DNA of 54,007 nucleotides from Planctomycetota bacterium. Lineage in GTDB: Bacteria; Planctomycetota; Phycisphaerae; Phycisphaerales; SM1A02. Below the pieces are notes generated by a model that was not told the DNA's origin, did no database searches, and saw nothing but the letters and a program-made list of their open reading frames with translations. The translations under genes and the position numbers were made by a program. Positions 10,980-48,274 of the stretch are shown here, in pieces; position 1 is the stretch's first letter, and each line of letters begins with the position of its first letter. The DNA is taken from assembly GCA_021414025.1 (NCBI GenBank), contig JAIOPG010000007.1, forward strand, positions 1 through 54,007, in the 5' to 3' direction.

Positions 10980-11025
10980 CCCCGCTGCGGCCCCGTTCTC
11001 GGACTCGTTTCTGTGCACCGCCGAC

Positions 11026-11053
11026 TTGACGAGTCGATAGGGTCGGCTATTCA
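11026..11053 (+). promoter_or_regulatory. Putative topA promoter
   Basis: TTGACG (11026-11031) and TATTCA (11048-11053) are separated by 16 bases and lie just upstream of the topA ATG at 11068. The -35 matches consensus at 5 of 6 positions; the -10 is weaker. Confidence 0.4.
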
Positions 11054-11067
11054 TCCCTTCCTTCTAT

Positions 11068-13812: not shown

Positions 13813-13869
13813 AACACTTCGGCCGCCGACGGGCGAATCATCGACCAAAGCTTGGCCGCCGCACGACAG

Positions 13870-31900: not shown

Positions 31901-32020
31901 GGCCTCGTGCTTCTGGACTTCGGTCCATGCCCGGGCTGCATGACCGATCTTGACGGATCGGGCGAAGTCGACGGCGGCGACATCGGACTGGTGCTGCTGA
32001 GTTTCGGCGCCTGCCAGTAA
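28931..32020 (+). CDS. Large secreted protein: lamin-tail-like domains, cysteine modules, dockerin-like end
   Basis: This is a secreted protein of about 1029 residues. A signal peptide (MRTNHLVAGLMLATTTAALA) is followed by four related beta-rich domains. Each opens with a phrase like LNEVRIDQQGTDNDEYAEL and contains TYLVIGDG, which resembles lamin-tail domains. Two cysteine modules of the form C-H-C-CC-VC-CC-WD-C lie between the second and third domains and between the third and fourth. The C-terminus holds two copies of a DLDGSGEVDGGDIGLVLL motif separated by a short PCPGCM linker, similar to the calcium-binding loop of dockerin/EF-hand repeats. It likely sits on or outside the cell surface. 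An ATG ten codons earlier (28901) is possible. Two paralogues of the cysteine modules occur at 44971-48259. Confidence 0.85.
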   Translation: MRTNHLVAGLMLATTTAALAQSINEIRVQQTGIDTEIYAEISGTAGTDLSTYTYLVIGNDDFAIMGMQNGYIESAIQLSGVIPASGFYVVAEPSYTLTTPDLFSFLDFQSDNNKTHMLVQNFTGSVGDIVDADQNGAIDTTFWSSISSSVALVAFTPQDGQSSDYVYSADTIGPDGGSFPSKVQRCPTTLVWQIGFADVSPTHDTPGAANPVCASGNTVVQLNEVRIDQQGTDNDEYAELSGEPGADLSSLTYLVIGDGTASLKSGVVECIIPLTGQTMPANGLFLITLKNTGGQDGIAFGKAGNLQTDKLIFENNDNVTHIIVRNYTGNVAVGQDLDTNDDGVLDVTPWTAVVDGVAVCKTDAAAPPVSTTEEWWYTPVVEAGGNVLRSKADGINPAAHVYRCSPQGSWKNGFFDPVAAGAANLDSPSAVNPECSNCGEAGSGSCFTAHAGPGCDNGACCSTVCTLLPACCTTAWDTNCTDTSFGYCLQGGSPPAIQLNEIRTSDESTRTANLPLNQYLEIVGPPNASLNGVTVVIINDQDANPQDPRGVVDAATKLDGLQLDSSGRFLMVENGFNIAGVTPNYNSGGGLALDLNKTGTVMLAWNFYGSRNDDLDTDNDGTLDTTPWISVIDSVSLTDGTDVGAAYSSTVVGPHNVDTVDRLPEHVYRCTSDGTWTMGPSAVTVGYDTPRADNADCSLPAIYNCGDGAAGDCFMPHDNAHCFNRACCEAVCDVAPDCCDVIWDQLCVDAAGTLTACGGGSPIAYLNEARFDEVNTDVDEYVEIKAEPGTDLSALTFIVVGDGSNVTKSGVIECVVPLTGQVVPESGLFVITLKTEGANPQDGIALDFPGDLQVATLNLENSDNLTLMLVDGFSGALNDDLDADDDGVMETTPWAGVEDSISIVGTVHAAPTGTTEEWWYASRIGPNVTGLAYHIYRCSPVGYWWAGVRDITNPDTITDRPGQANITCPGEGSNCFGDLDGSGEVDGGDIGLVLLDFGPCPGCMTDLDGSGEVDGGDIGLVLLSFGACQ

Positions 32021-32046
32021 GCGTTCCATGAGTTGATTGAATCTTT

Positions 32047-32961: not shown

Positions 32962-33042
32962 CACCAGGACGGGATGCCGCGGCTTGCCGCGATTCGCGGC
33001 GGATGCCACAATTCGGGGCAAGGCCGTACACTTCGGCTCTCA

Positions 33043-33083
33043 TTGCGGGAGTAGCTCAGTGGTAGAGCGGCAGCCTTCCAAGC
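33043..33083 (+). repeat. attL: left copy of the 41-bp attachment repeat
   Basis: Identical to 42851-42891. It begins two bases before the tRNA 5' end and stops one base before the second half of the anticodon stem continues; the flanking bases differ on both sides. Crossover occurred somewhere inside it. Confidence 0.92.
33045..33083 (+). pseudogene. tRNA-Gly 5' fragment (displaced host half)
   Basis: The acceptor strand GCGGGAG, D arm, 5' anticodon stem and TCC anticodon are present. The sequence then departs from tRNA, so no T arm or 3' acceptor can form. A TACACT hexamer at 33027-33032, ending 13 bases before the 5' end, is probably the -10 of the original host tRNA promoter and now drives this fragment. 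Confidence 0.9.
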
Positions 33084-33280
33084 AGCCACCCCTGCTCAAT
33101 TCGGGCTTAAATTCCACTGTTTCAAGAACCCGTACCGCTTCTGCATACTCAACTGACCACAGTTGCCCTGCATCGCCTTGCGTTCCTCAAGAACTAACAG
33201 TTTTAATTAAATGTTGGAATGGGTTGTCTGAACCTGTTCAGAAAGGGCTATTGGCCCTAATTCGTTCGGTGATCGAATGA
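33083..33280 (+). pseudogene. Stranded 3' end of the integrase gene
   Basis: In the frame set by the attachment repeat this segment encodes 65 residues ending in KCWNGLSEPVQKGLLALIR and a TGA at 33278-33280. The right-hand integrase reads the same repeat in the same frame, up to codon AAG. Recombining attL and attR would therefore fuse integrase residues 1-432 to this tail, giving a protein of about 497 residues. The W-x-x-L-x-x-x-V-x-x-G-L tail resembles C-termini I recall from planctomycete integrases. In the integrated state it has no start of its own and is probably not translated. Confidence 0.75.
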
Positions 33281-34164
33281 GACCCCCCACAACGCTCTAC
33301 GATCTCTTCCAGACGGTTCCAAAGACTAATGTGGGGCAAATCCCCTGTACCTATTAACAGCCGGGAATCCCCTTTTTAAACACCCCACCCTGCTGGACTC
33401 AATCCGCTGAGAATGAGGTCAGAGTACTCCTGTCCGAACAGTTCCTAGGAAATGGGTCCCCGCTAAGTTCCATTTGGCTAGCCATTGGCTTCTAAGTGTG
33501 GGTGTTTTTTAAAATTTTTTTGGCAATTTTACAATCCTCTTCACCCCCATTTTTGAGCTGGAAATGGGGTCCTTGAAACATGCTGATTTACATCTATTGA
33601 AAATCCAATATTTCACGGTTTGAATCCACAATTCACATTTTTTTGAATTTTAAAAGATTTGTTCTGATTGGGTCAATCTTTACATACATATTTCTGGACA
33701 AGTGATTTTTTGTCTGACATCCTTTTTCCACCGCCGTTGTGGACACTGCCCCGACCCCAGTAAGTGTGGTCACATAAATGGGGACTAACGGGAGTAATCA
33801 TCCACTTCAGAAGTGATGAAGGATTGTGAAGAGCTGCAGAGACCCGATCTGCTTCAAGAAGTGAACATTTGGACCCTAGTTCACCCCAATAGGAACCAGC
33901 CTATTGCACTCATGCAAGTCTGTAGTGGGCTGAATCCCAGCCATAATGGTGCAAGACTTGCCTTTACCGAGACCTTATACGGATAAGACTTGTAAAGACC
34001 TCTTAACAAGGGGTCTTTACACTCAACCATACCGGATGCGAAGTGGAAATGAAATTTCCACTTCCAATAATATATTTTTAGATCTGCATTGAATCCATAT
34101 CAATGACTGCATACATTTTATATTAATTTCAATAAGACTTACTCTCATCTCACATGACTTATTC
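33281..34164. other. Long noncoding stretch with many inverted repeats
   Basis: There is no credible gene in these 884 bases. Several perfect inverted repeats are visible: 33545-33569 (8 bp), 33861-33884 (6 bp, GTGAAC/GTTCAC), 33887-33906 (7 bp, CAATAGG/CCTATTG), 33991-34021 (10 bp, TGTAAAGACC/GGTCTTTACA) and 34040-34064 (11 bp, GAAGTGGAAAT/ATTTCCACTTC). AGACTTG occurs three times (inverted at 33914-33921, direct at 33954-33961 and 33986-33992). The density is highest at 33800-34064. It could hold a structured RNA, the element's origin, or recombinase/excisionase binding sites. The last hairpin also lies about 100 bases beyond the 3' end of the NTPase gene. Confidence 0.6.
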
Positions 34165-35703
34165 TTATTTTTCAGATGTCAAATCATCAATTTTTACTTT
34201 TTCGATAAATTCAATGAGAACATCATAAAAATATTGCGCTTTCGATTGTGTAACTTCCGGATAAATCCAAAGTCCGCTTTCATAATTCTCCCGAATCATA
34301 AGCCTGTACTTGTCAAGCCACACAGTGTCTCCCGGCTTTAATGGCAGAGGAAGCAGAAACTTAATCATAGGCCTCGCAGCAATTGCGTATTGTTGATTTG
34401 AATTGTTAGCCGTCTTATCAGAATCTATATCAGGCAATGATTTTTTAGTATTTTTTAATACCTCAAGAAGGTGTTCTCTGTCCCCCAAGAGGGCGATAAG
34501 CAGTTTGATACTAATATGTACAGCATGGTTTAATTTTACCGCATGGTCCAACTCTTTCGTAAATTCGAACGGATATACGCCAAATCGCACTTCTGGAAAT
34601 GAGTATTTAACTGGCTTATATAGTTGGCGAAGATTCATCATACCATTCTCAAATGCACGACTCAATACTTCATATAATATGAAATTTATTATCCCACTAC
34701 TTTGACCAATAACATTTTTTAGACCCGGATCGCCATGTTTGATTTGCAATAGCAGTTCGGGTATTCTAGTTGCAATTGCTGCTTTATTGCCGAACTGGAA
34801 TGGCCTGATCGTAAAATATTTATCAAAATATCCCCAAAATTCAGCTAATGCTCCGTACTTATGGCGATATATACTCCGAAGATTTTGAACATCGCCAACA
34901 ATTACAATTCGGTCAAAGCCGAATTTATTTTCATCGTCATCATCCATATGTACAGAAAGTACATTCAATATCCTAAATACATGCTCTGGATCGATTCTAT
35001 CAAAGTCATCCAATATGAGTACGCTTTTTTTTGTTTCTGTTTTTAATTCATTTATCTTCAGTCGCAGTAAGTGACTTATATAATCTGTATCAACGATGCC
35101 TTCCATTGATTCGATTTTTTTATAGAACATCTCAATAACCTTATTGTCGCGTTCAATATACTCGCCTTTAAATTTTTGGAATTCCTTGTCAAGTTTCAAC
35201 AATTCTTTCAATGGCCGCCCAAGTTTGCCCAGTATTTGCAGAATAGGATCAGGAGCAATAGCCAATGCGTTTTCTCCTGTAGTTATCACTGATCGTAAAA
35301 CTCCATTTGCTGATGCCTTTTCCCTAACGAATGCATAGAATATTTCAACCCAATCCTTAACACCATTTATGTTTTCGCCCTGAAATGCATCTGGATATTT
35401 TTTGAGCAATTCAACGAGGATGTCATATTTTAATAGTTCAACAATATTTTCATTGCTTGTAATTTGATAACGAATGGGGTAAAGATGATATGTATCGTAT
35501 TTCCGATTTGCTTCAAAAAATTTCTTTAAAAATAGTGTTTTTCCAATCCCATATTTCCCAGAAAAGAATATTCTTCTATTATTGTCAATTGACAGAAATT
35601 CACTAAATTCATCTTTGGGTACATCGATTGGGATAAAGACATTTGGCACTTGATTCATGCTTCTGTTTCCGATTTGGCTTCGAGCATAGCTGATGCTTGT
35701 CAT
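34165..35703 (-). CDS. KAP-like P-loop NTPase
   Basis: This is a 512-residue protein with Walker A GKYGIGKT at residues 49-56 and Walker B VLILDDFDRID at 229-239, followed by FDRIVIVGDVQNLRS (sensor-like region). The long helical insert between the two Walker motifs and the DDFDRI form are characteristic of KAP/STAND-type ATPases. These often act as sensors or effectors in phage defence and plasmid exclusion. The C-terminal 200 residues are unassigned; no membrane segment is evident. The gene is strongly AT-rich. TATTCT ends 8 bases before the ATG at 35703, supporting that start; MNQVPNVF at residue 16 is an alternative. It lies 244 bases downstream of the nuclease-like gene on the same strand. 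Confidence 0.75.
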   Translation of the reverse strand: MTSISYARSQIGNRSMNQVPNVFIPIDVPKDEFSEFLSIDNNRRIFFSGKYGIGKTLFLKKFFEANRKYDTYHLYPIRYQITSNENIVELLKYDILVELLKKYPDAFQGENINGVKDWVEIFYAFVREKASANGVLRSVITTGENALAIAPDPILQILGKLGRPLKELLKLDKEFQKFKGEYIERDNKVIEMFYKKIESMEGIVDTDYISHLLRLKINELKTETKKSVLILDDFDRIDPEHVFRILNVLSVHMDDDDENKFGFDRIVIVGDVQNLRSIYRHKYGALAEFWGYFDKYFTIRPFQFGNKAAIATRIPELLLQIKHGDPGLKNVIGQSSGIINFILYEVLSRAFENGMMNLRQLYKPVKYSFPEVRFGVYPFEFTKELDHAVKLNHAVHISIKLLIALLGDREHLLEVLKNTKKSLPDIDSDKTANNSNQQYAIAARPMIKFLLPLPLKPGDTVWLDKYRLMIRENYESGLWIYPEVTQSKAQYFYDVLIEFIEKVKIDDLTSEK

Positions 35704-35947
35704 TCATTTAGAGAATACGACCATGAACCACACCATTCGAGAAGTAGTGAACCACTTGTTAGGTTCCACTAGATTGAATTCCTAGTCGAATTGAGAACGG
35801 TCCAGTGTCTCGCATAACTCTCACTTTGTCTGGACTAGGATCGGGGGAGTAGACCATTGACTTGACTCTGGTTCTTGAATTGTGTGTTTCATTTTTTATT
35901 CCATTAACATGGAGAATTGAGTGTGCAATCAATTGCTGGGGCCTGAA

Positions 35948-37381
35948 CTACAGTTTTGATGCCGACGGTTTATTCCGAGACGCATCGACCACTACAACAT
36001 CGATCTCGATGCCTCGCGATGCCACGGAACTGGCGGCGAATTTAAGTTGCGAGATGTTTCTATTTTGGGAGTCGTCGTACGCCACAAGTAAGTAAACACC
36101 ATACTTGCCAACGTCCGCAACGATATAGGTAGGAAGCTGCTGTGTCACGCCGCGAATCCACTTAGTATTGTTTGCCAGTTTCGCTTCAAGTAGACACTTG
36201 GCGTTAAAGCCATACGAAAACTTGAAGTCAACAGGCCCGCGGCCCGCGTTTGTTTCAGGATCGACACTAACGTTGTTCTTAGCACAAATCAGAAAGACCA
36301 GCCCGAACATCAACCGCTGAACAGCCTTTTCCCCCTTTTGTTGGGTTCCATCCCACAGTAGCTCCCACCCTTTCTGCTGCTCAATGAAGTGCTTAAAGTA
36401 ATTCGCTAGAGCGAGTACAAACCGTTTCATCTCAGCTCCGGTAGTTGGGGGCGTGAACTGGAACGGATGAGTCGATAAATGATCGAACGCGGCTTTCTGC
36501 ATTGTCACGCCCATACGGTCTCGCTTGAAGTCATAGGGCTTGCCGCCAATTTGGGCGGCCATCTTCATGAACTCGCCGCGTGTTTTCTCGTCCTTTCGAG
36601 CTGCTTCGAGGACCTTTACTTTGTCGAAGGTGACAAGCTTTCTTGAAAGTTCTTCACGGTGGTGTTCTCTCCATTGCCGCTCAGCGTACTTATTGAATTC
36701 AGTGCTACCCAAGGTGGGCAGGTGCCGTAGAAACCGTTGCGGCGTGAGAAGTAACGGCTTCCCTGTCCGGGGATTCAGAGGAACAACTGCATCGACCGCC
36801 ACCCAACGATCCTGCGCCAAGTCATACCGAGCTCGGTCAAGTGGTCTCTTCTCCATCGGGATCTTCAGCTCGGCACAGATCCGAGCGGTATAGAGGGCAA
36901 ATCTCCACTTGGAAATCCCGGCCGTGGCGTCGCTAATCCGATCAGGACCGATACTGCCGCCAAGGATGCTAATTTCCTCGAAGTGCTTGATGTCCTTCAA
37001 TCCGAGCGCAATAGAAGCCATAATTGCCTGAACCATGAGTCTAGCCAGGCCCGCTCCAGTCCCCGCACCTTCGGTTCCTTCGCTGTACCCAAGACACAGT
37101 TCTCCCGCTTCGGGCATGTGCATCGCCTGAATGACCGTTTGGATTGACGAAGAAGAGATATCAGTTCCGGCTTTGGCAACCCTGTGGTATTGGCGCTGAA
37201 AGAACTCGACGACTTCAACATGCGCGCCCTTGAACTCGTCCTCCTGCTCCAAATCGAGCATCAAGAACGGATCAATGCAAAGCGGAGAATCTAGGACGAT
37301 GCAGGGGTCAAACCACTCTTCCGACCCATCAAGCGTCAATCCGTAAGCTTCGCTGAAGGTCAGTGCACGAGCGTTTGCCAT
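35948..37381 (-). CDS. Uncharacterised protein with probable PD-(D/E)xK nuclease end
   Basis: This is a protein of about 477 residues. The N-terminal half has WFDPCIVLDSPLCIDPFLML and GGSIGPDRISDATAGI, phrases I associate with an uncharacterised bacterial family often found in defence regions. Near the C-terminus the pattern PVDFKFSYGFNAKCLLEAKL gives Asp385 and Glu399-x-Lys401. This, with the hydrophobic strands around it, fits the PD-(D/E)xK nuclease core. The start at ATG 37381 is favoured because TACAAT ends 7 bases upstream; a GTG at 37402 is possible. Its base composition is closer to the host than that of its neighbours. It likely pairs with the NTPase downstream. Family name not assigned. 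Confidence 0.65.
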   Translation of the reverse strand: MANARALTFSEAYGLTLDGSEEWFDPCIVLDSPLCIDPFLMLDLEQEDEFKGAHVEVVEFFQRQYHRVAKAGTDISSSSIQTVIQAMHMPEAGELCLGYSEGTEGAGTGAGLARLMVQAIMASIALGLKDIKHFEEISILGGSIGPDRISDATAGISKWRFALYTARICAELKIPMEKRPLDRARYDLAQDRWVAVDAVVPLNPRTGKPLLLTPQRFLRHLPTLGSTEFNKYAERQWREHHREELSRKLVTFDKVKVLEAARKDEKTRGEFMKMAAQIGGKPYDFKRDRMGVTMQKAAFDHLSTHPFQFTPPTTGAEMKRFVLALANYFKHFIEQQKGWELLWDGTQQKGEKAVQRLMFGLVFLICAKNNVSVDPETNAGRGPVDFKFSYGFNAKCLLEAKLANNTKWIRGVTQQLPTYIVADVGKYGVYLLVAYDDSQNRNISQLKFAASSVASRGIEIDVVVVDASRNKPSASKL

Positions 37382-37388
37382 TGAGTTA

Positions 37389-37394
37389 ATTGTA
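37389..37394 (-). promoter_or_regulatory. Putative -10 element (TACAAT) of the nuclease-like gene
   Basis: TACAAT (5 of 6 to consensus) on the minus strand ends 7 bases before the ATG at 37381. Confidence 0.45.
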
Positions 37395-37601
37395 CGTAAC
37401 ACGCGATCGCGCGCTGACGCAAGTTGAACACCGCTGTAATCGAAACGATGTTTCCTGCTGTTCGCATGGACGAGCGACCAATTGGATGTGCACGATCAGG
37501 GTCTATGGTCTACAATGTTGCCATTCCGCCGATGCGGCAATAGCTTGAGATAGTGGGGACATTGATTTAGCGCTCACTACGTTGAGAGAATGGAGATTCA
37601 G

Positions 37602-37814
37602 ATGGGTAAATGGAAGGGTGACCAGAATAGTGGCAAACCAATCACGCCTGCCGTCGTTCGAGAGGTTAAGGTTCTGGCCAAGGGCAACACGCCTACTCGC
37701 GTAATTGCCGGTTTAACCGGACGAACCGAAGCGGCTGTACGGCACATCGCGTCGCAGAACAATATCTCGCTAAAGCCCACGAACCAATCGCCAAATAAGG
37801 GAAAGAGCCGATAG
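37602..37814 (+). CDS. Small HTH/SANT-like protein
   Basis: This is a 70-residue basic protein. The core PAVVREVKVLAKGNTPTRVIAGLTGRTEAAVRHIA looks like a small helix-turn-helix of the SANT/GcrA-like kind. It ends in NISLKPTNQSPNKGK, an ending I recall from a widespread family of small bacterial proteins. ATG 37602 has GGAG 6 bases upstream; an ATG four codons earlier is possible. It lies 20 bases before the membrane-protein gene on the same strand, so it may regulate or belong to that operon. DNA-binding is inferred. Confidence 0.75.
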   Translation: MGKWKGDQNSGKPITPAVVREVKVLAKGNTPTRVIAGLTGRTEAAVRHIASQNNISLKPTNQSPNKGKSR

Positions 37815-37834
37815 TTAAACAGCGGCCAGATCAA

Positions 37835-38794
37835 ATGCGAATAGCAAACAGGGCCGAAATTCTCAAAGCTGTTCAAACTCCACTTGGCTTTTTTGCCCTA
37901 GCACTGATTGTTGTCGAAGTGGTGTTTGGTATTGTGGCTGGATTAGCATCTGGCACCGATCGCACTTATGCCATTTTTGGCATGCTGAGCGTACTACTCC
38001 TCCTAATTATTATCGTCGCAATCATTACCTTTTTCCGGCCTGAAGCCTTGTTTGGCAAGCGACAAGATACTTCCGTACCAACTTTACCTCCTGCAGGTAA
38101 ATTCGTAAATACGAATGGTGCGCCGGCGAATTTGCTTCCCGCCCGACTGATCTCCTTTGGAATGCAGAATATTTACAATATGCAAGATCCGAAGGAACAA
38201 GATGCGCGAAATCACAAGACGCGAGAGATCATTAACTCGGGCAGCGATTACTCGTTACTTAGCCTCTCATCGGCGTCCTATATTGATCCTTCATTGGCTC
38301 GACACTGGGAAACACTTCGTCCTAAGCTGAACGACGGCAAATCGTTTCGACTTCTCATCCAAAATCCGTTTTGTAGAGAAAAACAAGTGCGCGATCATTT
38401 GAATGACGTGACGCGGTTCGATTCAAAGCTACGCATTGATCTAATGATTCAACTTTATAATCGTTATAATAATTTCGACGTTCGATTTACTGACACTAGC
38501 ATTTATTGCGCCGTATTTTTTACACAAACGGACATGATTTATGATCCGTACCATTTGGGAAAATTGGGAAATCGAATCGAGAATTATTTCGTTTCATTTC
38601 ATCTAGCGCGTCACAAGATCGCTCCCTCGGGTCATAGTTATTACGAAATCCTGAAGCAGCATTTTGAGTATTTGTGGAAGGAAGACAGCCTGGGGTTAGA
38701 GGATTTTTGCGACTCTCATCAATCTCAACTGAATTCTCTTGGTACGGGCAGTATGTCGGTGCAGAGACGAAAATCAAAAGGCGGGAATATATGA
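37835..38794 (+). CDS. Two-TM protein with DUF5919-like domain
   Basis: This is a 319-residue protein. Two membrane helices (about residues 14-36 and 46-70) are joined by a short loop, placing the rest in the cytoplasm. The region from about 125 to 300 (DYSLLSLSSASYIDPSLARH, FRLLIQNPF, VRFTDTSIYCAVFFTQTDMI, HFEYLWKED) resembles the domain that follows HTH regions in some actinobacterial regulators (DUF5919-like, perhaps PLD-like in fold, without HKD motifs). That assignment is from memory and moderate. Its stop overlaps the next start as ATGA, so it is translationally coupled to the Nudix-radical SAM fusion and probably acts with it, perhaps as a membrane sensor or anchor. Confidence 0.65.
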   Translation: MRIANRAEILKAVQTPLGFFALALIVVEVVFGIVAGLASGTDRTYAIFGMLSVLLLLIIIVAIITFFRPEALFGKRQDTSVPTLPPAGKFVNTNGAPANLLPARLISFGMQNIYNMQDPKEQDARNHKTREIINSGSDYSLLSLSSASYIDPSLARHWETLRPKLNDGKSFRLLIQNPFCREKQVRDHLNDVTRFDSKLRIDLMIQLYNRYNNFDVRFTDTSIYCAVFFTQTDMIYDPYHLGKLGNRIENYFVSFHLARHKIAPSGHSYYEILKQHFEYLWKEDSLGLEDFCDSHQSQLNSLGTGSMSVQRRKSKGGNI

Positions 38795-40596
38795 AAATAA
38801 GCGTTGGCGCAGTGATTCTTAACTCATCTGGGGATCAAATTCTTTTGCTGCGCCGTCGTCAAAGTCCCGAGGCTGACAAATGGACCATTCCCGGTGGCCG
38901 AGTAGAACCGGGAGAAGCACCACATGAGGCATTGGTTCGTGAACTGAAAGAGGAACTCGCATCCGCGTCTCAGATAATTCGATACATTGGGCAGTTCCAA
39001 TATGCAATTGATGAATTGGATTCTCCCATAGCTTCACTTTGCTATCTCGTCGAGCTTTTAGGAAATCCTGTAAACGCAGAGCCTGAACACCACTCGGAGC
39101 TTCGGTGGTTTCCGATGATCTGCTTGCCTGAACTTCTCGCACAACCGGCAACGTACGCCGCAAAGATGCTGCCCAAATTAATTCCCACAACGAAAGTAGT
39201 GTTACCGAAAAACGTCAATGTATTGCTCATTCAACCATTTTTCCCATTCGCAGACGAAGAAGCGCTGAGTTTGCCCCTCGGACTTGCTTCTCTTATCGCA
39301 GTACTACGGTCCCACGGGATTTCCGCGGAAGTGCTGGATTGTAACATAGCGACCGATTACACGACACTTATACGCTTGCAGTCCTCCAATTTAAGCGTGC
39401 CAATTGTCGGCGTGCAATTCCACAGCGACATGTCGGTCGATTGGGCGCGACGTGAATGTGCAGCATTAAGAAGATCACTGCCTAACACCATCATGATTGG
39501 TGGTGGCGAGGTAGGATCATCAACGGCAGAGGAACTTGTCCGGACAAATGTTGTTGATATCGTGGTTCGAGGTGAAGGAGAAACGACCTTTACCGCTCTG
39601 TGCAGCGCCATACTTGCCAATCGGGATTGGCATCAACTTCCCGGCCTGACCTGGCGAACAGGAAATAAAGTTGAGTCCACCTTGGATGCAGAATTCATCA
39701 CAGATCTCGATTGCTTACCAAAACCCGATATTGACGCTTTCCGTTGGAAGCAATACGGTCAGTGGTCGCTCTTCACCGCTCGTGGCTGTCCATTTCGATG
39801 CACATTTTGCAGCTCTGCTGCCTTCTGGCGACATTCTGTTCGTTATCACAGTCCCGAAAGGGTACTGGAGGAAATAGAACGATTAGTGCAACATTATAGC
39901 GCGAGTGACATCTACTTCGCCGACGACACGTTTACGTTAAATCGAAATCGGATCTTGAAACTTTGCAGTCTTCTACTGCTTCGAAGAATCCGAGTACGGT
40001 GGTCATGCCTTACGCGCGCCGATTGTGTAGACGAAGAACTTCTAGTACAGATGGCTGCGGCTGGCTGTGTACAGATAAGTTTTGGATTAGAATCTGCAAA
40101 CGATAGGGTTCTTGATGATGTGAAAAAAAACCTGTCGATGTCAGATGTTTCAACGGCGCTTGCACTATGCCGACAATGTGGCATCCGGTCTAGGGTTAGT
40201 GTGATTTTGGGTTTACCCTCTGATGATATTGCAAGTTTGGGTTGTACACTTAGATTTCTTTGCGAATCACGCCCAAACGAAGTCCAAATTTACGGATTGA
40301 CCCCGCACGACGGAACAAACCTGTATGGGAATCTGACCGTAGCTGGCGTTCACATCCTGCAAGAAGATCAGTCTTTGTGGTCGCGTAACGCTCTCAATCC
40401 CGTTTGCGAAACGAACAATCTCACGGCCCTTCAGATTCGCGATGCTGCTTTGCAGTTTGTACACGCCATGCAGGAATTGGGATACGTGTATCTCAACGAA
40501 GCATTGACTCCCAAGAAAAGAAATTTAGAGCGAACAGTCGCCACGAGTTTCACCCCTATTCAAGGAATACGAACCGGCACATTAGGGGCACATTAA
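38791..40596 (+). CDS. Nudix - B12-binding - radical SAM fusion protein
   Basis: This is a 601-residue protein with three domains. Residues 1-130 form a Nudix hydrolase with the box G36-x5-E42-x7-R50-E51-L-x-E54-E55 (GGRVEPGE, RELKEEL); the usual late Gly is Ala. Residues 143-285 form a cobalamin-binding-type Rossmann domain (VNVLLIQPFFPF, IMIGGGEVGSSTAEELV, DIVVRGEGETTF) without DxHxxG, as is common in this radical SAM class. Residues 325-560 form the radical SAM barrel, with Cys333, Cys337 and Cys340 in ARGCPFRCTFCSS. It would act on a nucleoside-diphosphate-linked or related small molecule; the substrate is unknown. It is translationally coupled to the two-TM protein upstream. Domain calls are strong, function is open. 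Confidence 0.88.
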   Translation: MKISVGAVILNSSGDQILLLRRRQSPEADKWTIPGGRVEPGEAPHEALVRELKEELASASQIIRYIGQFQYAIDELDSPIASLCYLVELLGNPVNAEPEHHSELRWFPMICLPELLAQPATYAAKMLPKLIPTTKVVLPKNVNVLLIQPFFPFADEEALSLPLGLASLIAVLRSHGISAEVLDCNIATDYTTLIRLQSSNLSVPIVGVQFHSDMSVDWARRECAALRRSLPNTIMIGGGEVGSSTAEELVRTNVVDIVVRGEGETTFTALCSAILANRDWHQLPGLTWRTGNKVESTLDAEFITDLDCLPKPDIDAFRWKQYGQWSLFTARGCPFRCTFCSSAAFWRHSVRYHSPERVLEEIERLVQHYSASDIYFADDTFTLNRNRILKLCSLLLLRRIRVRWSCLTRADCVDEELLVQMAAAGCVQISFGLESANDRVLDDVKKNLSMSDVSTALALCRQCGIRSRVSVILGLPSDDIASLGCTLRFLCESRPNEVQIYGLTPHDGTNLYGNLTVAGVHILQEDQSLWSRNALNPVCETNNLTALQIRDAALQFVHAMQELGYVYLNEALTPKKRNLERTVATSFTPIQGIRTGTLGAH

Positions 40597-40606
40597 CACA
40601 CGTTTA

Positions 40607-40951
40607 GTGCTGCGAAACACCATTAAATGTTTATCAACGTTTAATACCTCCCTGTGTCGGGCATTCCATAATATGGGCCTCCCCCCCCAAGTTAGGTCCA
40701 GCTTCAGCGGGAAAAATTCTACAGCTTATTACTATCGTTCAATCTGTAACAGCGATTCAGATTGTTCTGGTGAAGTTGATTGTGCCGATCTCGGCCTCTT
40801 GATTTTGGAACTTGCCAGCAAAACAGTAATTGATAAGAAAATGAACAAATTCAACAACTTTTATTCATTTAAATTCTTCGTCTACGATCAAAGAATTGGA
40901 AATACAACTAACCGCAGGATTACCTTCAGGAACGCCTTTAGCGACATCTAA
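40607..40951 (+). pseudogene. Degenerate relic with dockerin-like motif
   Basis: An open frame of 114 codons contains DSDCSGEVDCADLGLLILEL (coded around 40754-40810). This is a decayed match to the DLDGSGEVDGGDIGLVLL repeat that ends the three large host surface proteins. The flanking sequence has no signal peptide or recognisable domain, and a run of eight C bases lies at 40681-40688. I read it as the remnant of a surface-protein gene captured from a related planctomycete. The rest of 40597-41204 is AT-rich and shows no gene; a short dyad, TGCCA-TAA-TGGCA, lies near 41073. Confidence 0.5.
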
Positions 40952-41204
40952 ATGGTGTTACAGAGGTTGGCAAGGCTTTCCTGTACCCCGGGGCACCTCT
41001 AAATGCGTGATTTCGAACGGACTCTTTGGTTCCCTACTGTCGCGTAAGGATTATAAAGTAACTTGATGATACTGCCATAATGGCAATCCGGGGATGGTAA
41101 ATAGAGTTGCTAGTTTTATTTAATGCTTCTGCCCACTTAACAATTCTATTACATCTTTATTCCATTCTTTCTGGATATATTATTAGATTTTGTCAGTTAT
41201 TCGC

Positions 41205-41233
41205 TTGACAAGGGTGTTATTATATGGTATAAT
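41205..41233 (+). promoter_or_regulatory. Perfect sigma-70 consensus promoter for xis-int
   Basis: TTGACA (41205-41210), a 17-base spacer and TATAAT (41228-41233) match the consensus at all positions. Transcription would start near 41240, about 17 bases before the GTG of the excisionase-like gene. Confidence 0.85.
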
Positions 41234-41256
41234 TATCCACTTAGAAGATCGTTCCC

Positions 41257-41598
41257 GTGTTACTGATTGCATGGTTGGAAAGGCTTTTTGTGGATTTTTT
41301 AAATACTGATAATGCGAGCGGCGATGGCATTGAGAAGAATGACAATCTGAAACTAAATACAAATTCGAGGATGGCGCTACCGGAATCTGTGCAACCGGCA
41401 GTGCCGGGCATTGCTTCGAGATATTTTGATTCAAAACAGGCAGCAAAATTTCTAGGAATTTCTGTACGCCACTTATGGACGCTAAAGAATCAAAACTTGA
41501 TTCCTTGGTTCCCTCTAGGTCGATGTGTTCGCTATTCGCCTGAAGTCATCAATGCATATTTGACAGAACAAATGCAAAAGAAGGGAAAGCGACGATGA
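41257..41598 (+). CDS. xis: Excisionase-like HTH protein (MerR/HTH_17 type)
   Basis: This is a protein of up to 113 residues whose C-terminal half (YFDSKQAAKFLGISVRHLW, then LIPWFPLGRCVRYSPEVINAYL) is the winged helix-turn-helix of the excisionase/HTH_17 family. Such proteins bend DNA at att sites and set the direction of recombination, or act as regulators. The GTG at 41257 with AGAAGA 8 bases upstream fits the mapped promoter; an ATG at 41371 would still keep the HTH. Its stop overlaps the integrase ATG (ATGA), so both are co-translated. Confidence 0.82.
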   Translation: MLLIAWLERLFVDFLNTDNASGDGIEKNDNLKLNTNSRMALPESVQPAVPGIASRYFDSKQAAKFLGISVRHLWTLKNQNLIPWFPLGRCVRYSPEVINAYLTEQMQKKGKRR

Positions 41599-43280
41599 AA
41601 ACTCGAACCCATTCTCAACGGACTCGTGGCACTGGCACTTTGAAACGTCGATGCAAAATATGGTATGGAATTTATTTTGATGCATCTGGAAAGCGAATTA
41701 CACGTTCAACAGGTACATCTGACCAATCGGTTGCGAATCGACTATTGAATAAATGGACAGATGAAGTAACCCTTCTAAAAATGGGGCTCATCAATTCCAC
41801 TCAAAATCGAATTCTTACACAATCTAAGAAAACAATTGAAGCACATGTTGATGATTACTTGGCTCATTGCAATAGAGATGAGCAAGCTAAAAAGCATATT
41901 AAGCAAAAGAGACATCAACTAACAAGTTGGTTTGCTTTCTCGAATGTTTCGCAACTTCAAGACATCTCGTCTGAATCTCTAGAGCAATATCTTGATGGGA
42001 GGCATGACCAAGGCTTGTCAGCTCGTTCATGGAACCAGACACTTCAAATTGCTCGTGCTTTTGTAAATTGGTGTGTGAAGGACAGTCGCCTACCTTCTAG
42101 TCCGCTTGTAAACATTCCTAAGAAAAATGAAAAACTTGACCATAGACGAGTTCGACGGACAGTTACAACGGAACAAATTGAAAATTTATTAGCGGTTGCA
42201 AGACCAAGGGGAAGAGAAGCGTGGTATGCCCTAGTCATAATGCTTGGTTTTAGAAAGGGTGATCTACAACAACTCGAATGGACCGATCTTGATCTCGTGA
42301 GCCCCCTACCTACAGTTACATTCCGTTTTGAAAAATCCCGCCGAAATAGCGTTCTTCCTTTGCTACCTGAACTTGTAGAGATTCTTCAGGATCACAAGTC
42401 GAAACAGCCATCAAATGCCAAACGAGTTTTCCCAACAACAGTGACGGATAGAACTCGTGATAAAGATTTGAAACGAGCAGGGATTCCAAAATTCAACGAA
42501 AAGGGTGCCGTAGTTGATCTACATTCATTTCGAAAAACAATGGGTACGAACCTTGCTCGTGCTGGAGTGCCGCAGGGATCAACCAAAGAGATGTTGCGTC
42601 ATTCAGATTACAGAACAACTGATGCATTTTATGTTGATCTCGACATGCAAGATAAGGTGAATGCAACGAAATTACTTCCAAAAATTGAAAGGCGACCACT
42701 TAGGATTTCTAATAGTGATTCCACTTCAAATTTGGCACTTTCCCCCTGTACACAGAACTGTACACAGTTACCTTGCTTTTCATTGCATCAGGATGCATCA
42801 ACTAACACCGACTCGACGCTAGAAAAGCCCGTAGTACAATCAAAACCTCTTTGCGGGAGTAGCTCAGTGGTAGAGCGGCAGCCTTCCAAGCTGCATGTCG
42901 CGAGTTCAAGTCTCGTCTCCCGCTTTCGCGTTTGGGTCGCCGTCACTCCTTTCCTCGGAGGATTTCACGATGAAAAAGATTCGCACCCTGGCATCGCTTT
43001 CCATCCTGCTGGTTCTGGGAGGCTGCAGCGCCGCGTTCGGCCCCTCGGGAGGCGTTCCCGCCTATGCGTTCAACTTCGCCTGCTTCAGGGCGCCGGTCAC
43101 CCTCGACAGCCCGCCATCGACGAGCACGATGCCGCTGCCCAATGGCGTTTCGCCGAAGACGCAACCAGCAGCCACGGTCGCCGCGCCGAATTCGCCCGCG
43201 AAGTGAGCGGAATTATTTTTTCGCGGCCCATTCAAGCTCGGCCGAGAGCGCTCGGTGCTCGCCCGGCAAGCCGCCCTTGA
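41595..43280 (+). CDS. int: Tyrosine recombinase (integrase), frame runs through attR and tRNA-Gly
   Basis: This site-specific recombinase integrates and excises the island. The catalytic set is complete: Arg220 (LGFRKGDL), Lys247, His310-x-x-Arg313 (HSFRKT), His336 (LRHSDY) and Tyr346 (TTDAFYVDLD). An N-terminal SAM-like core-binding domain lies at about 80-180. Beyond residue 370 comes a Ser/Thr/Cys linker, and residues 420-432 are encoded by the attachment repeat (CGSSSVVERQPSK). From there the integrated frame reads the rest of the tRNA and then unrelated host sequence to 43280 (129 extra residues), which is surely not native. In an excised circle the frame joins the segment at 33083-33280 instead. 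The gene is AT-rich, and AGGGA 8 bases before the ATG serves as its ribosome site. Confidence 0.9.
   Translation: MKTRTHSQRTRGTGTLKRRCKIWYGIYFDASGKRITRSTGTSDQSVANRLLNKWTDEVTLLKMGLINSTQNRILTQSKKTIEAHVDDYLAHCNRDEQAKKHIKQKRHQLTSWFAFSNVSQLQDISSESLEQYLDGRHDQGLSARSWNQTLQIARAFVNWCVKDSRLPSSPLVNIPKKNEKLDHRRVRRTVTTEQIENLLAVARPRGREAWYALVIMLGFRKGDLQQLEWTDLDLVSPLPTVTFRFEKSRRNSVLPLLPELVEILQDHKSKQPSNAKRVFPTTVTDRTRDKDLKRAGIPKFNEKGAVVDLHSFRKTMGTNLARAGVPQGSTKEMLRHSDYRTTDAFYVDLDMQDKVNATKLLPKIERRPLRISNSDSTSNLALSPCTQNCTQLPCFSLHQDASTNTDSTLEKPVVQSKPLCGSSSVVERQPSKLHVASSSLVSRFRVWVAVTPFLGGFHDEKDSHPGIAFHPAGSGRLQRRVRPLGRRSRLCVQLRLLQGAGHPRQPAIDEHDAAAQWRFAEDATSSHGRRAEFAREVSGIIFSRPIQARPRALGARPASRP
42813..42840 (+). promoter_or_regulatory. 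Island-borne replacement promoter for tRNA-Gly
   Basis: TCGACG (42813-42818), 16 bases and TACAAT (42835-42840) lie inside the integrase frame. The -10 ends 13 bases before the tRNA 5' end, the same distance as TACACT at the displaced host copy (33027-33032). Confidence 0.6.
42851..42891 (+). repeat. attR: right copy of the 41-bp attachment repeat
   Basis: Identical to 33043-33083. It supplies the 5' half of the intact tRNA-Gly gene. Confidence 0.92.
42853..42924 (+). tRNA. tRNA-Gly(TCC)
   Basis: A full cloverleaf: acceptor GCGGGAG with CTCCCGC, D arm GCTC/GAGC, anticodon stem GCAGC/GCTGC around CTTCCAA (anticodon TCC), T arm GCGAG-TTCAAGT-CTCGT (one G-T pair), discriminator T. No CCA is encoded. 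The 5' half comes from the element side of the recombination and the 3' half from the host chromosome. Confidence 0.96.
42970..43206 (+). CDS. Small lipoprotein
   Basis: This is a 78-residue protein with a lipoprotein signal (MKKIRTLASLSILLVLGGC) and a short Pro/Ser/Thr-rich mature part that may be unstructured. CGGAGGA lies 9 bases before the ATG. It was next to the tRNA before the island arrived. No family recognised. Confidence 0.75.
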   Translation: MKKIRTLASLSILLVLGGCSAAFGPSGGVPAYAFNFACFRAPVTLDSPPSTSTMPLPNGVSPKTQPAATVAAPNSPAK

Positions 43281-44970: not shown

Positions 44971-46275
44971 ATGAACCGCCACATCGAACGCATGCGCAAG
45001 AAGTCTGTTCTTTCCTTCGGTGATCTGTTCGAATCCCCTTTGTCCACCAACCGGGTCCACATGGTCTGGCTGATTTCCCTGAGCGTGCTGCTTGGAATCC
45101 GTCCCGCCCTCGCCAACGGCGAGGAGCCCTGTTGCGCGGCCCACGCGGGCACCGGCTGCATGAATCCGGAGTGCAACGCCGAAGTCTGCCTGCTGGACCC
45201 CTTCTGCTGCCTCATGGCATGGGACGAGCGCTGCGCGCTGGAAGCGGGCGTGCTCTGCGACGCCTGCCGGGCGACCACGGCATGCGAGGTTCCAACACCG
45301 GATCTCGAGGAGTCGATCATCTGCGAGAACGATCTGCCGCATTCCTGCGATGCGATGCAGGAGGTCCGGGCCCTGATCCCCAACCTGAAACTTGGCGGAC
45401 GCGCCTGGTCGACGGAAACGGATCGCGATGTGGATTGGTTCGAGATCACCCTTGAAACACCGCAATTGCTGCGCATCGAACTGTGGACGCAGGGCGCGAT
45501 CAGCGTGGCGATCGTGGATGGTCAATGCCCCCCCACCACGCTCGCCGAGGGCGTGGACGGCTGCCCATCCGTCACCCAAGCCTGCGTTCCAGCGGGCGTG
45601 ATCCGGGTCGCGGTGCGATCCATCCTGTTCGAGAGCATTGCCTGCTCCGACGAGCGGTCGCGCTACGCCATTCAGGCCGAACTCTCCCCATGCACTCCCG
45701 AGCCCCTGGTGAACGATCGATGCGACATGGCTCTTCCCATCGGCGTCGGCCCGGTGGTCGTGGACACCACCAACGCCACCAGCGAAGCCGCCTGGCTTCC
45801 CGCGACCTGCGACGAGGGAGCGGGACTGGCCTTCACCCATGACGCATGGTTCGCTTTCACGGCCAACGCATCAGGGATTTTTCAGGCGAGCACCTGTGTC
45901 GATCCGGACTTCGACTCACGCCTCGCGGTGTACAGCGATTGCGGCGGCAACCTGCTGGCCTGCAGCGACGACGCCTGCGCAGGCGAAGGCGCCAGCGCCG
46001 AGTTTCAATTGACTTGCGGATCAGTTGCTTTGGTCCGCGTGGGAGGTTGGGGTTCCGGAGGGCTCATAACCCTTTCCATTGATCCCGTTTCCACGATCGA
46101 TTGTCCTTGCTTGGCGGATCTGGATGGATCCGGCGAGGTCGACAGCTCCGATCTTGGGCTGATTCTCCTTGAATTCGGGGCTTTTGGCGGTCCCGCCGAT
46201 CTGGATGGCGATGGAGAAGTTTCCTCGGGAGACATTGGAATCGCTTTACTTTCCTACGGCAGTTGCGATTCTTAG
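44971..46275 (+). CDS. Secreted cysteine-module protein with dockerin-like end
   Basis: This is a 434-residue protein. A long N-region and a hydrophobic segment (MVWLISLSVLLGIRPALA) form the signal peptide. A cysteine module (EPCCAAHAGTGC to WDERC) comes first. A beta-rich middle region with NDRCDMALPIGVG and DAWFAFTANASGIFQASTC resembles a domain found in many planctomycete surface proteins. The end carries two dockerin-like motifs, LADLDGSGEVDSSDLGLILL and ADLDGDGEVSSGDIGIALL. GGAG 7 bases upstream supports ATG 44971. It is a partial paralogue of the neighbouring 46334 gene and of the 28931 gene. Confidence 0.82.
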   Translation: MNRHIERMRKKSVLSFGDLFESPLSTNRVHMVWLISLSVLLGIRPALANGEEPCCAAHAGTGCMNPECNAEVCLLDPFCCLMAWDERCALEAGVLCDACRATTACEVPTPDLEESIICENDLPHSCDAMQEVRALIPNLKLGGRAWSTETDRDVDWFEITLETPQLLRIELWTQGAISVAIVDGQCPPTTLAEGVDGCPSVTQACVPAGVIRVAVRSILFESIACSDERSRYAIQAELSPCTPEPLVNDRCDMALPIGVGPVVVDTTNATSEAAWLPATCDEGAGLAFTHDAWFAFTANASGIFQASTCVDPDFDSRLAVYSDCGGNLLACSDDACAGEGASAEFQLTCGSVALVRVGGWGSGGLITLSIDPVSTIDCPCLADLDGSGEVDSSDLGLILLEFGAFGGPADLDGDGEVSSGDIGIALLSYGSCDS

Positions 46276-46333: not shown

Positions 46334-48259
46334 ATGCGTTCCAATCCACTTTCTTGTCTTGGTTTGGAGCCCTTTTCAACTGGCTGCGGCATGGTGTTCA
46401 AGCATTTTTCAATCCAAGCTCGGGGTCAACTGCTCTCCTGGTTTCATCGAAGGAACCGATGCGGACTTGGTGCGTTGATCGCGGCATTTTGTCTGTGCCT
46501 CCAGGGGACGCGCGCCGATCAGACCGGCTGCGGATTCGGCCCCTGCGGCGAAGTGCACGTCGGCTCAGGCTGCGTCGACATCACCTGCTGCGAGACGGTC
46601 TGCGGATTTTCGCCGCCCTGTTGTGAAACCAACTGGGACTCGAATTGCCTGAATTGGGCGAACCAGGTCTGCGAAGTCTGCGGCATCCCAGGGCTCGGAT
46701 CCTGCTTCATTTCCCACGAGAAGGCCTCCTGCGCCGACGCCACCTGCTGCGGAGTGGTCTGCAACATCGATCCCTTCTGCTGCGAGGCGAGCTGGGATCT
46801 CACCTGCGCGTTTTCCGCCCAGGACAACTGCATGCTCCCGCCTCCCAAGGAGTGCGGCGACCCGACCGCGGGCAGCTGCCTTGAGCCGCACGGCAATTCC
46901 AGCTGCTCTGATCCCGCCTGCTGCGAGTCGGTCTGCGCCGGCCTGCCCAACTGCTGCACGGTGATCTGGGACGACATCTGCGTCTATCTGGCACAGGATC
47001 TGTGCAACTCCACCTGCTCCCTCTCCTGCCCCAACGGCTCGACCCATGAGGCGGAGGTCTGCGGCACGCGGGCCAACGATCCCAGTATCCGCCCCGACGC
47101 GACCGGCCCCAACATTCCGCAAGCCATCGCGGCGCAGGCCACGATCTGCGGCAACATGTACCTCACCAACGACGGGGCCACGGTCGTGGACGTCGATGTC
47201 TACTCCATCAATCTCACCAACGCCGACACGGACCACGACGGCTACGTCAAGGTCGCCATCACGCTCGCCGGCGAGCGCCCCATCTTCGCCGCCTTGACTC
47301 CGGTCAACGCGACCGAGACCTCGCTGCCCGGGGCGCTGCTCATGGTCAACGCCGCCGGTTGCACTCCCAACCGCGAATGGACCTGCGTGCCCCCCGCTCA
47401 ATACTGGATCGTGATCGCCCCCGGCGTCAACGGCGCCATCTCGAACCAGGCCTTCGCCTGCGCCGACGGCGACTATTGGTTCCAGCTTGAGACGGCCGCG
47501 GCCTGCGCCCTGCCCTGCACCAACGCCACCGGCAACTGCTACGAAGTCCACGCATCACCCAGTTGCGTCAATCCCGCCTGCTGCTCGCTGGTCTGCGCCT
47601 CGATTCCATCCTGCTGTGAAACCACGTGGGACCAGGATTGCGCCGTTCGCGCGGCGCTGGACTGCGGCGCGCCGGCACCAAGCAATGACACCTGCGCCTC
47701 GCCGATGGACATTGCCTCGGGATCCACTGTGGTCTCGCTGCTGGGATCCTCGCCCGGGCTGCCGGTGTTCGCCTGCCCGGCGAATCCTTCACCCATGGGC
47801 GGCGATGTCTGGTTCCGCTGGAGCACGCCCGCGGGCATCCACGGCGACTACCAAGTTGACGTGTGCGGCGTCGAGTTCGACACTCGCATGGATGTGTTCT
47901 CCGGAACGTGCGGAGCCTTGGTGGCGCAGGCCTGCTCGGACGACAGCCTCTTCTGCAATCCGACAAGAGGCAGCCGACTCGTCCTTGCGGCGGAGTGCGG
48001 CGAGACCTATCTGATCCGTCTCGCCTCGCTCGCAGGCGACACGGGCTTCGCCACGATTCACATCGCTCCCAATGGCACCAGCCATTCCTGCTGCCCCGAG
48101 GACCTTGACCTCAGCGGCGAAGTCGATGGCGGCGATCTTGGACTGGTGCTGCTGGACTTCGGCCCCTGCTTCCTCTGCTACACCGATCTGGATGGGTCGG
48201 GCGAAGTGGATGGCGGCGACATCGGCCAGATCCTCCTGAATTTCGGTCATTGCCCCTGA
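46334..48259 (+). CDS. Secreted protein with four cysteine modules and dockerin-like end
   Basis: This is a protein of about 641 residues. After an unusually long N-region the signal helix is CGLGALIAAFCLCLQGTRA. Three cysteine modules of the pattern C-H-C-CC-VC-CC-W-C follow in tandem, then a beta-rich domain, a fourth module (TGNCYEVHASPSC to WDQDC) and a second domain with DVWFRWSTPAGIHGDYQVDVC. The end has two dockerin-like motifs (DLDLSGEVDGGDLGLVLL and DLDGSGEVDGGDIGQILL). The ATG at 46334 is chosen because of the TATAGT element 6 bases upstream; ATG 46391 would give a more usual signal peptide. Surface or sheath role inferred. Confidence 0.82.
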   Translation: MRSNPLSCLGLEPFSTGCGMVFKHFSIQARGQLLSWFHRRNRCGLGALIAAFCLCLQGTRADQTGCGFGPCGEVHVGSGCVDITCCETVCGFSPPCCETNWDSNCLNWANQVCEVCGIPGLGSCFISHEKASCADATCCGVVCNIDPFCCEASWDLTCAFSAQDNCMLPPPKECGDPTAGSCLEPHGNSSCSDPACCESVCAGLPNCCTVIWDDICVYLAQDLCNSTCSLSCPNGSTHEAEVCGTRANDPSIRPDATGPNIPQAIAAQATICGNMYLTNDGATVVDVDVYSINLTNADTDHDGYVKVAITLAGERPIFAALTPVNATETSLPGALLMVNAAGCTPNREWTCVPPAQYWIVIAPGVNGAISNQAFACADGDYWFQLETAAACALPCTNATGNCYEVHASPSCVNPACCSLVCASIPSCCETTWDQDCAVRAALDCGAPAPSNDTCASPMDIASGSTVVSLLGSSPGLPVFACPANPSPMGGDVWFRWSTPAGIHGDYQVDVCGVEFDTRMDVFSGTCGALVAQACSDDSLFCNPTRGSRLVLAAECGETYLIRLASLAGDTGFATIHIAPNGTSHSCCPEDLDLSGEVDGGDLGLVLLDFGPCFLCYTDLDGSGEVDGGDIGQILLNFGHCP

Positions 48260-48274
48260 CGCATTCGGCGGGCT

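Follow-up and report, generated by a model that had tools for sequence, protein, structure and literature searches.

The locus studied here raises the question of what becomes of an integrase whose reading frame runs through its own attachment site: whether integration exchanges the C-terminus of the enzyme, and whether the part removed is of consequence. The window, by which we mean the whole stretch of DNA analysed (54,007 nucleotides), is contig C7, bases 1-54007, of a genome of 2.8 Mb in 8 contigs (97.5% complete). An exact 41-bp repeat (33043-33083 = 42851-42891), which can be extended to 48 bp with 2 mismatches (33039-33086 / 42847-42894), encloses DNA with a GC content of 35-54%, as against roughly 59-69% outside, and tRNA-Gly(TCC) at 42853-42924 (+) was the sole tRNA called in the window. 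The criteria for integration into a tRNA gene, namely direct repeats, a displaced tRNA fragment, and a restored tRNA, were met by the following features.

33043..42891, no strand assigned: integrated mobile element of about 9.8 kb and low GC (flanking 41-bp direct repeats, tRNA target, drop in GC)
33043..33083, + strand: left att copy, the displaced 5' part of tRNA-Gly, 41 bp exact (repeat and genome search)
42851..42891, + strand: right att copy, at the start of and inside the restored tRNA gene (repeat search)
42853..42924, + strand: restored tRNA-Gly(UCC), anticodon TCC in the DNA (tRNA call and genome search)

As inferred from the repeats, the restored tRNA would take its 5' half and upstream DNA from the element and its 3' half from the host. 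A search of the same genome (97.5% complete) with tRNA-Gly(TCC) returned the gene itself, a 42-base fragment, and one 78%-identical gene. Since a second full copy was not found there, the host seems to depend on a tRNA that is supplied in part by the element. In addition, a -10-like hexamer was seen ahead of the displaced fragment (TACACT at 33027-33032, in host DNA) and ahead of the restored tRNA (TACAAT at 42835-42840, in element DNA). The tRNA promoter may therefore come from the element, from within the integrase coding region. Elsewhere in the window, an 89-nt repeat in five copies (31853-32025, 46108-46196, and 48092-48264) encodes a DLDGSGEVDGGDIGLVLLDFG-like motif, which we take to be dockerin-like.

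The integrase frame begins at ATG 41595, runs for 432 codons to the repeat end, and continues for 129 codons via the tRNA and host DNA to 43280. When the frame was joined in silico as in the excised circle, a 497-aa integrase ending ...LIKCWNGLSEPVQKGLLALIRSVIE was obtained. The earlier note had read both 41-bp repeats in one frame, and the lengths that it derived (432 codons plus 129 when integrated, 497 aa when joined) were confirmed.

41595..43280, + strand: integrase frame as integrated, 561 aa (ORF and domains); residues 1-432 are common to the excised form, and the remainder is tRNA and host sequence
42690..42850, + strand: coding linker between the catalytic domain and the core, holding CTGTACACAG twice; putative P arm, the arm role being inferred
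33084..33280, + strand: detached 3' end of the integrase gene, about 65 codons, from the rest of codon 433 to TGA (frame joining)
33182..33277, + strand: C-terminal motif (VPQELTVLIKCWNGLSEPVQKGLLALIRSVIE), a predicted two-helix hairpin (tail profile and AlphaFold2)

In Pfam, the window integrase matched PF00589 (2.2e-15) and PF02899 (1.1e-5), and it meets the criteria for a tyrosine recombinase with R220, HxxR from 310, and Y346. Because the catalytic Tyr is residue 346, the catalytic residues all precede the att site, and the same claim in the earlier note holds. Both alternative frames are interrupted over the last 100 codons before the repeat end, by 4 and 10 stops. The criterion of an attP lying within the integrase frame, as in Mx8, was met in silico by the window and by its relatives. 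As far as sequence alone can tell, we regard it as nearly certain that the integrase frame of the window spans its own attachment site in frame.

A related integrase was found in 159 of 397 genomes of the class, inferred to be Phycisphaerae (E <= 1e-20). Among the first 20 stretches fetched, the integrase frame overlapped a tRNA called by ARAGORN in 19; in the twentieth (L042) no tRNA was called, yet the frame crosses a tRNA-Gly repeat. For a controlled count, 80 loci (the window and 79 contig loci) were used, following a search that kept the best 80 of 83. Of these 80 loci, 28 were set aside, 4 because they were cut and 24 because no tRNA was called in the 700 nt that follow the catalytic domain. 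In 45 of the remaining 52, the integrase frame stayed open for 30 nt of the tRNA, as compared with 8 and 1 for the other two frames. Of the seven exceptions, four reach only about 20 nt into a sense tRNA-Val before they stop, and three (L098, L116, and L134) end before the tRNA. L134 seemed by eye to carry the tail motif described below in its own frame; the profiles gave 1.2 and -0.3 bits, which do not support this, the tail matches among the 82 contig loci given below did not include it, and L134 was consequently excluded as evidence.

A second, divergent group of integrases was first met in another element of the same genome (PF00589, 8.2e-14). This element is of like design; it lies at tRNA-Tyr on contig C2, about 104250-111710 (L191), and has its own orphan tail. 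From the 30 best loci of this group, 4 were set aside, and the integrase frame was open 24 nt into the tRNA in 25 of the remaining 26 (other frames, 9/26 and 5/26). L264 and L109 are one contig. Relatives that stop before the repeat, or that lack the tail, had been named in advance as the finding that would refute the exchange; the opposite was found, since the relatives enter their tRNA targets in both groups. In viral contigs, the single-protein search confirmed no relatives, and an alignment search yielded three; no tRNA was called within their integrase frames or close to them. No close relative was found in plasmid and phage records, with one plasmid match at 25% identity and 12 phage records below 60%.

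These counts bear on the simplest objection, that the integrase merely lacks a stop before the tRNA and that the tail is coincidental. Long frames do arise by chance in GC-rich genomes, and the other frames were also open at some loci (8 and 1 of 52; 9 and 5 of 26). The frame controls, together with the conservation of the tail motif and the agreement in phase given below, argue against such chance read-through, and we consider it scarcely credible.

Where both element ends were available, the joined frames had similar C-termini. A tail profile was built from eleven joined tails, including that of the window, and the restored tails proved to have one motif in common. The tails end in a conserved motif of about 28 residues, DPDLAAVVxAWPxLPxAVRAGIVAMVKA, which ends 13 or fewer residues from the stop in 55 of 62 non-redundant tails (for the motif statistics, only tails with W..L by pattern were used). 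Differences per codon position within the motif were 0.37, 0.23, and 0.56 for the first, second, and third positions, indicating that the motif is conserved as protein, as under selection. A profile made without the window's tail ranked the predicted place first among the 1131 six-frame segments of the window, with E values of 0.029 (10 other tails) and 0.0014 (61 tails), the next best segments scoring 0.81 and 0.63. This score is weak by itself because the window tail is a divergent member. No family was found for the tails in PHROGs; NCBIfam gave a single match (E 0.013) and Pfam gave two (E 0.038 and 0.062), each confined to one of the eleven members, and all three were disregarded. The window's tail frame had no family match, and the tail had no match among PDB sequences.

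The tail motif occurs in 234 of the 397 class genomes (E <= 1e-3). Among 272 genomes from other classes of the phylum (G397-G668), 36 have it (E <= 1e-5). Among the 150 class matches listed, the frame holding the tail was shorter than 200 aa in 135, 200-399 aa in 12, and 400 aa or more in 3; the last three were considered as full-length genes and rejected, with no Pfam match at E <= 0.01. Tail and integrase lay within 50 kb of each other in 20 combinations on 16 contigs among the 150 + 150 matches listed, always on the same strand (20/20) and with the tail upstream in 18. The two downstream cases are G072, a tandem array, and G374:C21. In four further listed combinations, on one contig, the distance lies between 193 kb and 2.5 Mb, and three of the four have tail and integrase on opposite strands. 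In an independent set (82 contig loci and the window), tail matches at E < 0.01 were on the integrase strand in 10/10 cases and upstream in 8/10.

If the orphan tail is the detached end of the integrase, the two frames should join in phase through the shared repeat. This was the case in 35 of 36 pairs, against about 12 expected for random phase; 28 of 29 pairs from the class (window included) and all 7 pairs from outside it agreed. The pairs are not all independent, as G003 and G013 share a genus and two pairs come from the genome of the window. Of 47 tails examined, 26 could be paired with an integrase on the same strand whose 3' end carries the shared repeat: 24 were in phase directly, G374b was in phase via the tRNA repeat, and G225 was out of phase, a stop intervening between its repeat and its tail. 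Three further class pairs were all in phase. Among the other 21 tails, three are contiguous with an integrase (G171:C250, L205, and L209), additional sequence resolved L221, and 17 remained (two in G096; L201, L202, L203, L210, and L224; the rest on shorter stretches). For G374b and L276, the tRNA repeat was used rather than a longer linker repeat; for L200, both repeats were in phase; and for L270, the repeat adjoining the integrase was used rather than the longest one. Outside the seven pairs from beyond the class stand L269, L278, and the second tail of L270, whose repeat is shared by a frame without a recognised integrase (the tRNA repeat in L269 and L278), as well as tails without a repeat (L265-L268, L271, L272, L275, the second of L279, and L280-L283).

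Thirteen tRNA identities were called in the pairs, some pairs having no tRNA called. The class pairs use Gly, Ala, Cys, Tyr, Val, Ile, Lys, Phe, Leu, and Arg, and the pairs outside the class Asn, Met, and Ser (and Leu). Both tRNA orientations were found, the sense orientation in the window and G066. In G072, two tandem elements read through one tRNA-Gly repeat in differing phases, and the phase of each agrees with that of its own tail. Natural frames consisting of integrase, tRNA piece, and tail were also found, in L205, which starts at a contig edge, and in L212 and L209, which are N-terminally broken. The contiguous gene of L258 has one in-frame stop, and that of L259 a frame shift; all of these contiguous natural genes are incomplete or decayed. 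The contig of L205 (G310:C25) was tried as a circle and rejected, having no exact end overlap.

The phase agreement also weighs on the idea that the orphan tail is an independent small protein, for example an excisionase. The integrated tail is indeed a short frame in most of the matches listed (135/150 below 200 aa), and some tails have no recognised integrase nearby. Independent proteins would be expected to be in phase in only one third of the pairs, and, by eye, most of the 33 aligned tails have a tRNA-derived segment ahead of the motif in one open frame, so this idea is very improbable. Five class tails (L201, L202, L203, L210, and L224) had no integrase recognised by two profiles despite 14-19 kb downstream; outside the class, none was recognised with the tail of L272, and L265 has integrases without a shared repeat. 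The integrase-less tails may be decayed, may belong to longer elements, or may be paired with integrases missed by the two profiles.

Several arrangements were observed in passing. G096:C16 (L036 + L052) has two tail motifs, at 30508 and 32643 on the reverse strand, on the host side just past the tRNA, as if remnants of further elements had piled up. In G496:C1 2380551-2410250 (partly L271), from a single-contig genome outside the class, four tail-like motifs lie on one strand within 30 kb, and no integrase was recognised in the fetched part. L265 has three consecutive same-strand integrase frames at 10568-14622, possibly a recombinase array, and in L266 (48-1642) an integrase frame and a tail motif overlap in different frames, possibly a decayed contiguous gene.

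Joint alignments of catalytic domain and tail were misaligned by MAFFT, so the tail and the contiguous L205 protein were folded separately. For the window tail, using 33 aligned natural tails, AlphaFold2 predicted helices at residues 35-42 and 49-63, with block means of 82-96 over residues 31-64, 25 residues at 90 or above, and values near 60 over the first 30. For the natural L205 protein, the pLDDT by blocks was 73-91 in the catalytic domain, 36-54 in the linker, and 91-93 in the hairpin (72 over the last six residues), with a pTM of 0.54. The tail is predicted to be a two-helix hairpin on a disordered tether, and docking of the hairpin is not shown by these models. The earlier note had proposed the loss of a C-terminal regulatory helix; the single helix gives way to the predicted hairpin, and the regulatory role stays plausible without functional data. 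Between the two linkers flanking the core, the longest direct match was greater than any obtained in 12 codon shuffles for 14 of 25 pairs, suggesting that the frame contains arm-type binding sites as well; the linkers of the window fail this test (longest match 8, shuffle maximum 10).

What the hairpin does can be read in more than one way. It may be an ordinary structural or stabilising part of the enzyme, with the site placed in a tolerated linker and the loss serving no regulatory purpose. The linkers are long, poorly conserved, and predicted to be disordered, the catalytic residues precede the site, and an att site within coding sequence economises space, all of which fit this reading. The motif is nevertheless kept in very different integrases and lies past the crossover in every joined pair, which is easier to explain if its loss matters, and we judge the purely structural reading possible but rather unlikely. 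Alternatively, the tail may act as a degron or autoinhibitor in the circular state, integration freeing a more active or stable integrase. A precedent exists in BPs-type phages with attP in the repressor gene, which, according to the accessible part of the report, shed a C-terminal degradation tag by integration (PMC4557955). The tail ends, however, vary (SVIE in the window, ASKA, VPGD, and GGAE), no shared ssrA-like terminus was seen among them by eye, and the conserved part is the predicted hairpin; the SVIE end of the window tail does not meet the BPs criterion of an ssrA-like tag by eye. This possibility is accordingly considered unlikely.

The reading that we prefer is an integrase gene that encloses its site, with state-dependent loss of the hairpin as a latch. 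In the circular element, one frame would run from the catalytic domain through a linker and the att core, itself part of a tRNA gene, and on through a second linker to the C-terminal two-helix hairpin. Recombination with the host tRNA gene would cut this frame at the core. Because the hairpin lies across attP from the catalytic domain, integration would remove it and excision would restore it: the integrated enzyme would keep its catalytic residues and receive a C-terminus from the host frame, and the hairpin would be stranded as an orphan frame at the opposite end of the element until excision rejoined the halves. The full-length enzyme of the circle would differ in function, its most probable preference being for integration (attP x attB) or for assembly at attP, and loss of the hairpin upon integration could be a built-in latch against prompt re-excision.

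Sequence establishes that the layout exists, that it is in frame, that it recurs with different tRNA targets, and that the motif is conserved at the protein level. That circles form as predicted, and that the hairpin changes the behaviour of the enzyme in the circular state, are inferences, there being no excised circle, read, or functional data. The role of the tail as a directionality latch, inferred by analogy with Mx8 and not shown, is evenly balanced in our estimate. As an explanation of the whole, the site-enclosing gene with hairpin loss as a latch is the best available, and we lean modestly towards it. The wider proposal is that Planctomycetota harbour a large class of tyrosine-integrase elements with the attachment site inside the integrase frame, in which integration amputates and excision restores a conserved hairpin acting as a state sensor, with 13 or more tRNA identities in use and two or more divergent integrase groups sharing the design; in our view it could go either way.

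A protein encoded just upstream of the integrase would be the likely excision factor; it is listed here with the cargo.

41257..41598, + strand: small helix-turn-helix protein (HTH_17, family match), overlapping the integrase start by 4 nt
34165..35703, - strand: P-loop ATPase-like protein (cargo; weak matches, below curated cut-offs in Pfam)
35948..37402, - strand: candidate defence protein PDC-M36A (cargo; E 1.8e-25)
37835..38794, + strand: cargo protein of unknown function (no family match; N-terminal hydrophobic stretches by eye)
38674..40596, + strand: NUDIX, B12-binding, and radical SAM protein (cargo; model matches), candidate defence PDC-M51A / PDC-S07

The HTH_17 protein is a candidate recombination directionality factor, its role being inferred. 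A small HTH-like protein was found directly upstream of int in 17 of 22 other loci (by eye, without a family scan; two of the loci are the same element). As for the cargo, the region 34165-40596 matches candidate anti-phage defence models (PDC-M36A, PDC-M51A, and PDC-S07); the protein at 35948..37402 had no match in Pfam or NCBIfam.

The arrangement has practical consequences. Many short orphan frames in these genomes would be explained as detached integrase tails, and the tail motif can mark the far end of such islands. Chromosomal integrase sequences can have chimaeric ends, which is relevant when integrases are chosen as tools. The conserved tail also offers a concrete handle on how the directionality of a tyrosine integrase may be wired to the state of the DNA.

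The principle itself is known, from Mx8, from streptococcal rumA elements, and, in another form, from archaeal "suicidal" integrases. The earlier note had cited only fuselloviruses as precedent and had overlooked that bacterial integrases with exchanged tails (Mx8 and the rumA serine integrases) were already known. A 2021 review calls self-disrupting recombinases exclusive to archaea in its accessible part (PMC8371274), and a 2016 paper, likewise seen in part, names Mx8 as an example of the very few elements whose att site lies inside their own integrase gene (PMC4701971). In the titles and abstract openings of open-licence PMC literature, neither attP-spanning integrases in Planctomycetota nor this tail were described, and the accessible part of PMC12884075 contains nothing on the matter.

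The archaeal suicidal integrases (SSV1, pTN3, and pT26-2) likewise have the recombination site inside the integrase gene and are split by integration. Their split falls between the N-terminal and catalytic parts, whereas here only the C-terminal tail is lost and the catalytic part stays intact; the window integrase does not meet the archaeal type, with only PF00589 and PF02899 in Pfam, no Phage_integr_3 (PF16795), and Tyr346 before the site. In the streptococcal ICEs in rumA, the 3' ends of the host and integrase genes are exchanged, as stated in the part of the paper available (PMC4701971), but the recombinase is of the serine type and the target is a protein gene. In the integration-dependent immunity of mycobacteriophage BPs, an attP in a coding gene leads to a trimmed C-terminus and a changed function; there the gene is the repressor and the lost part an ssrA-like degradation tag (PMC4557955, from its accessible part).

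A close likeness is to Mx8 Int, a bacterial tyrosine integrase with attP within its gene, in which integration gives a new 3' end and the start of int is overlapped by an excisionase gene, uoi (record AF396866). Some integrases, those of Mx8 and SSV among them, reach across attP (PMC4383910). In Mx8, a 112-residue tail is replaced by 13 residues, giving a less active enzyme (PMC4701971), and the specificity after integration is described as altered, the enzyme not being inactivated (PMC6070905); these statements come from the accessible parts of the three papers. Against the tail profile, Mx8 Int scored below 0 bits at best (residues 106-116), and no W..L is present in its last 112 residues. 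Mx8 represents one phage type, whereas here the idea of an attP within the integrase is met repeatedly in one bacterial phylum, together with a conserved tail that the elements share, and it is this phylum-wide scale and the common tail that seem to be new.
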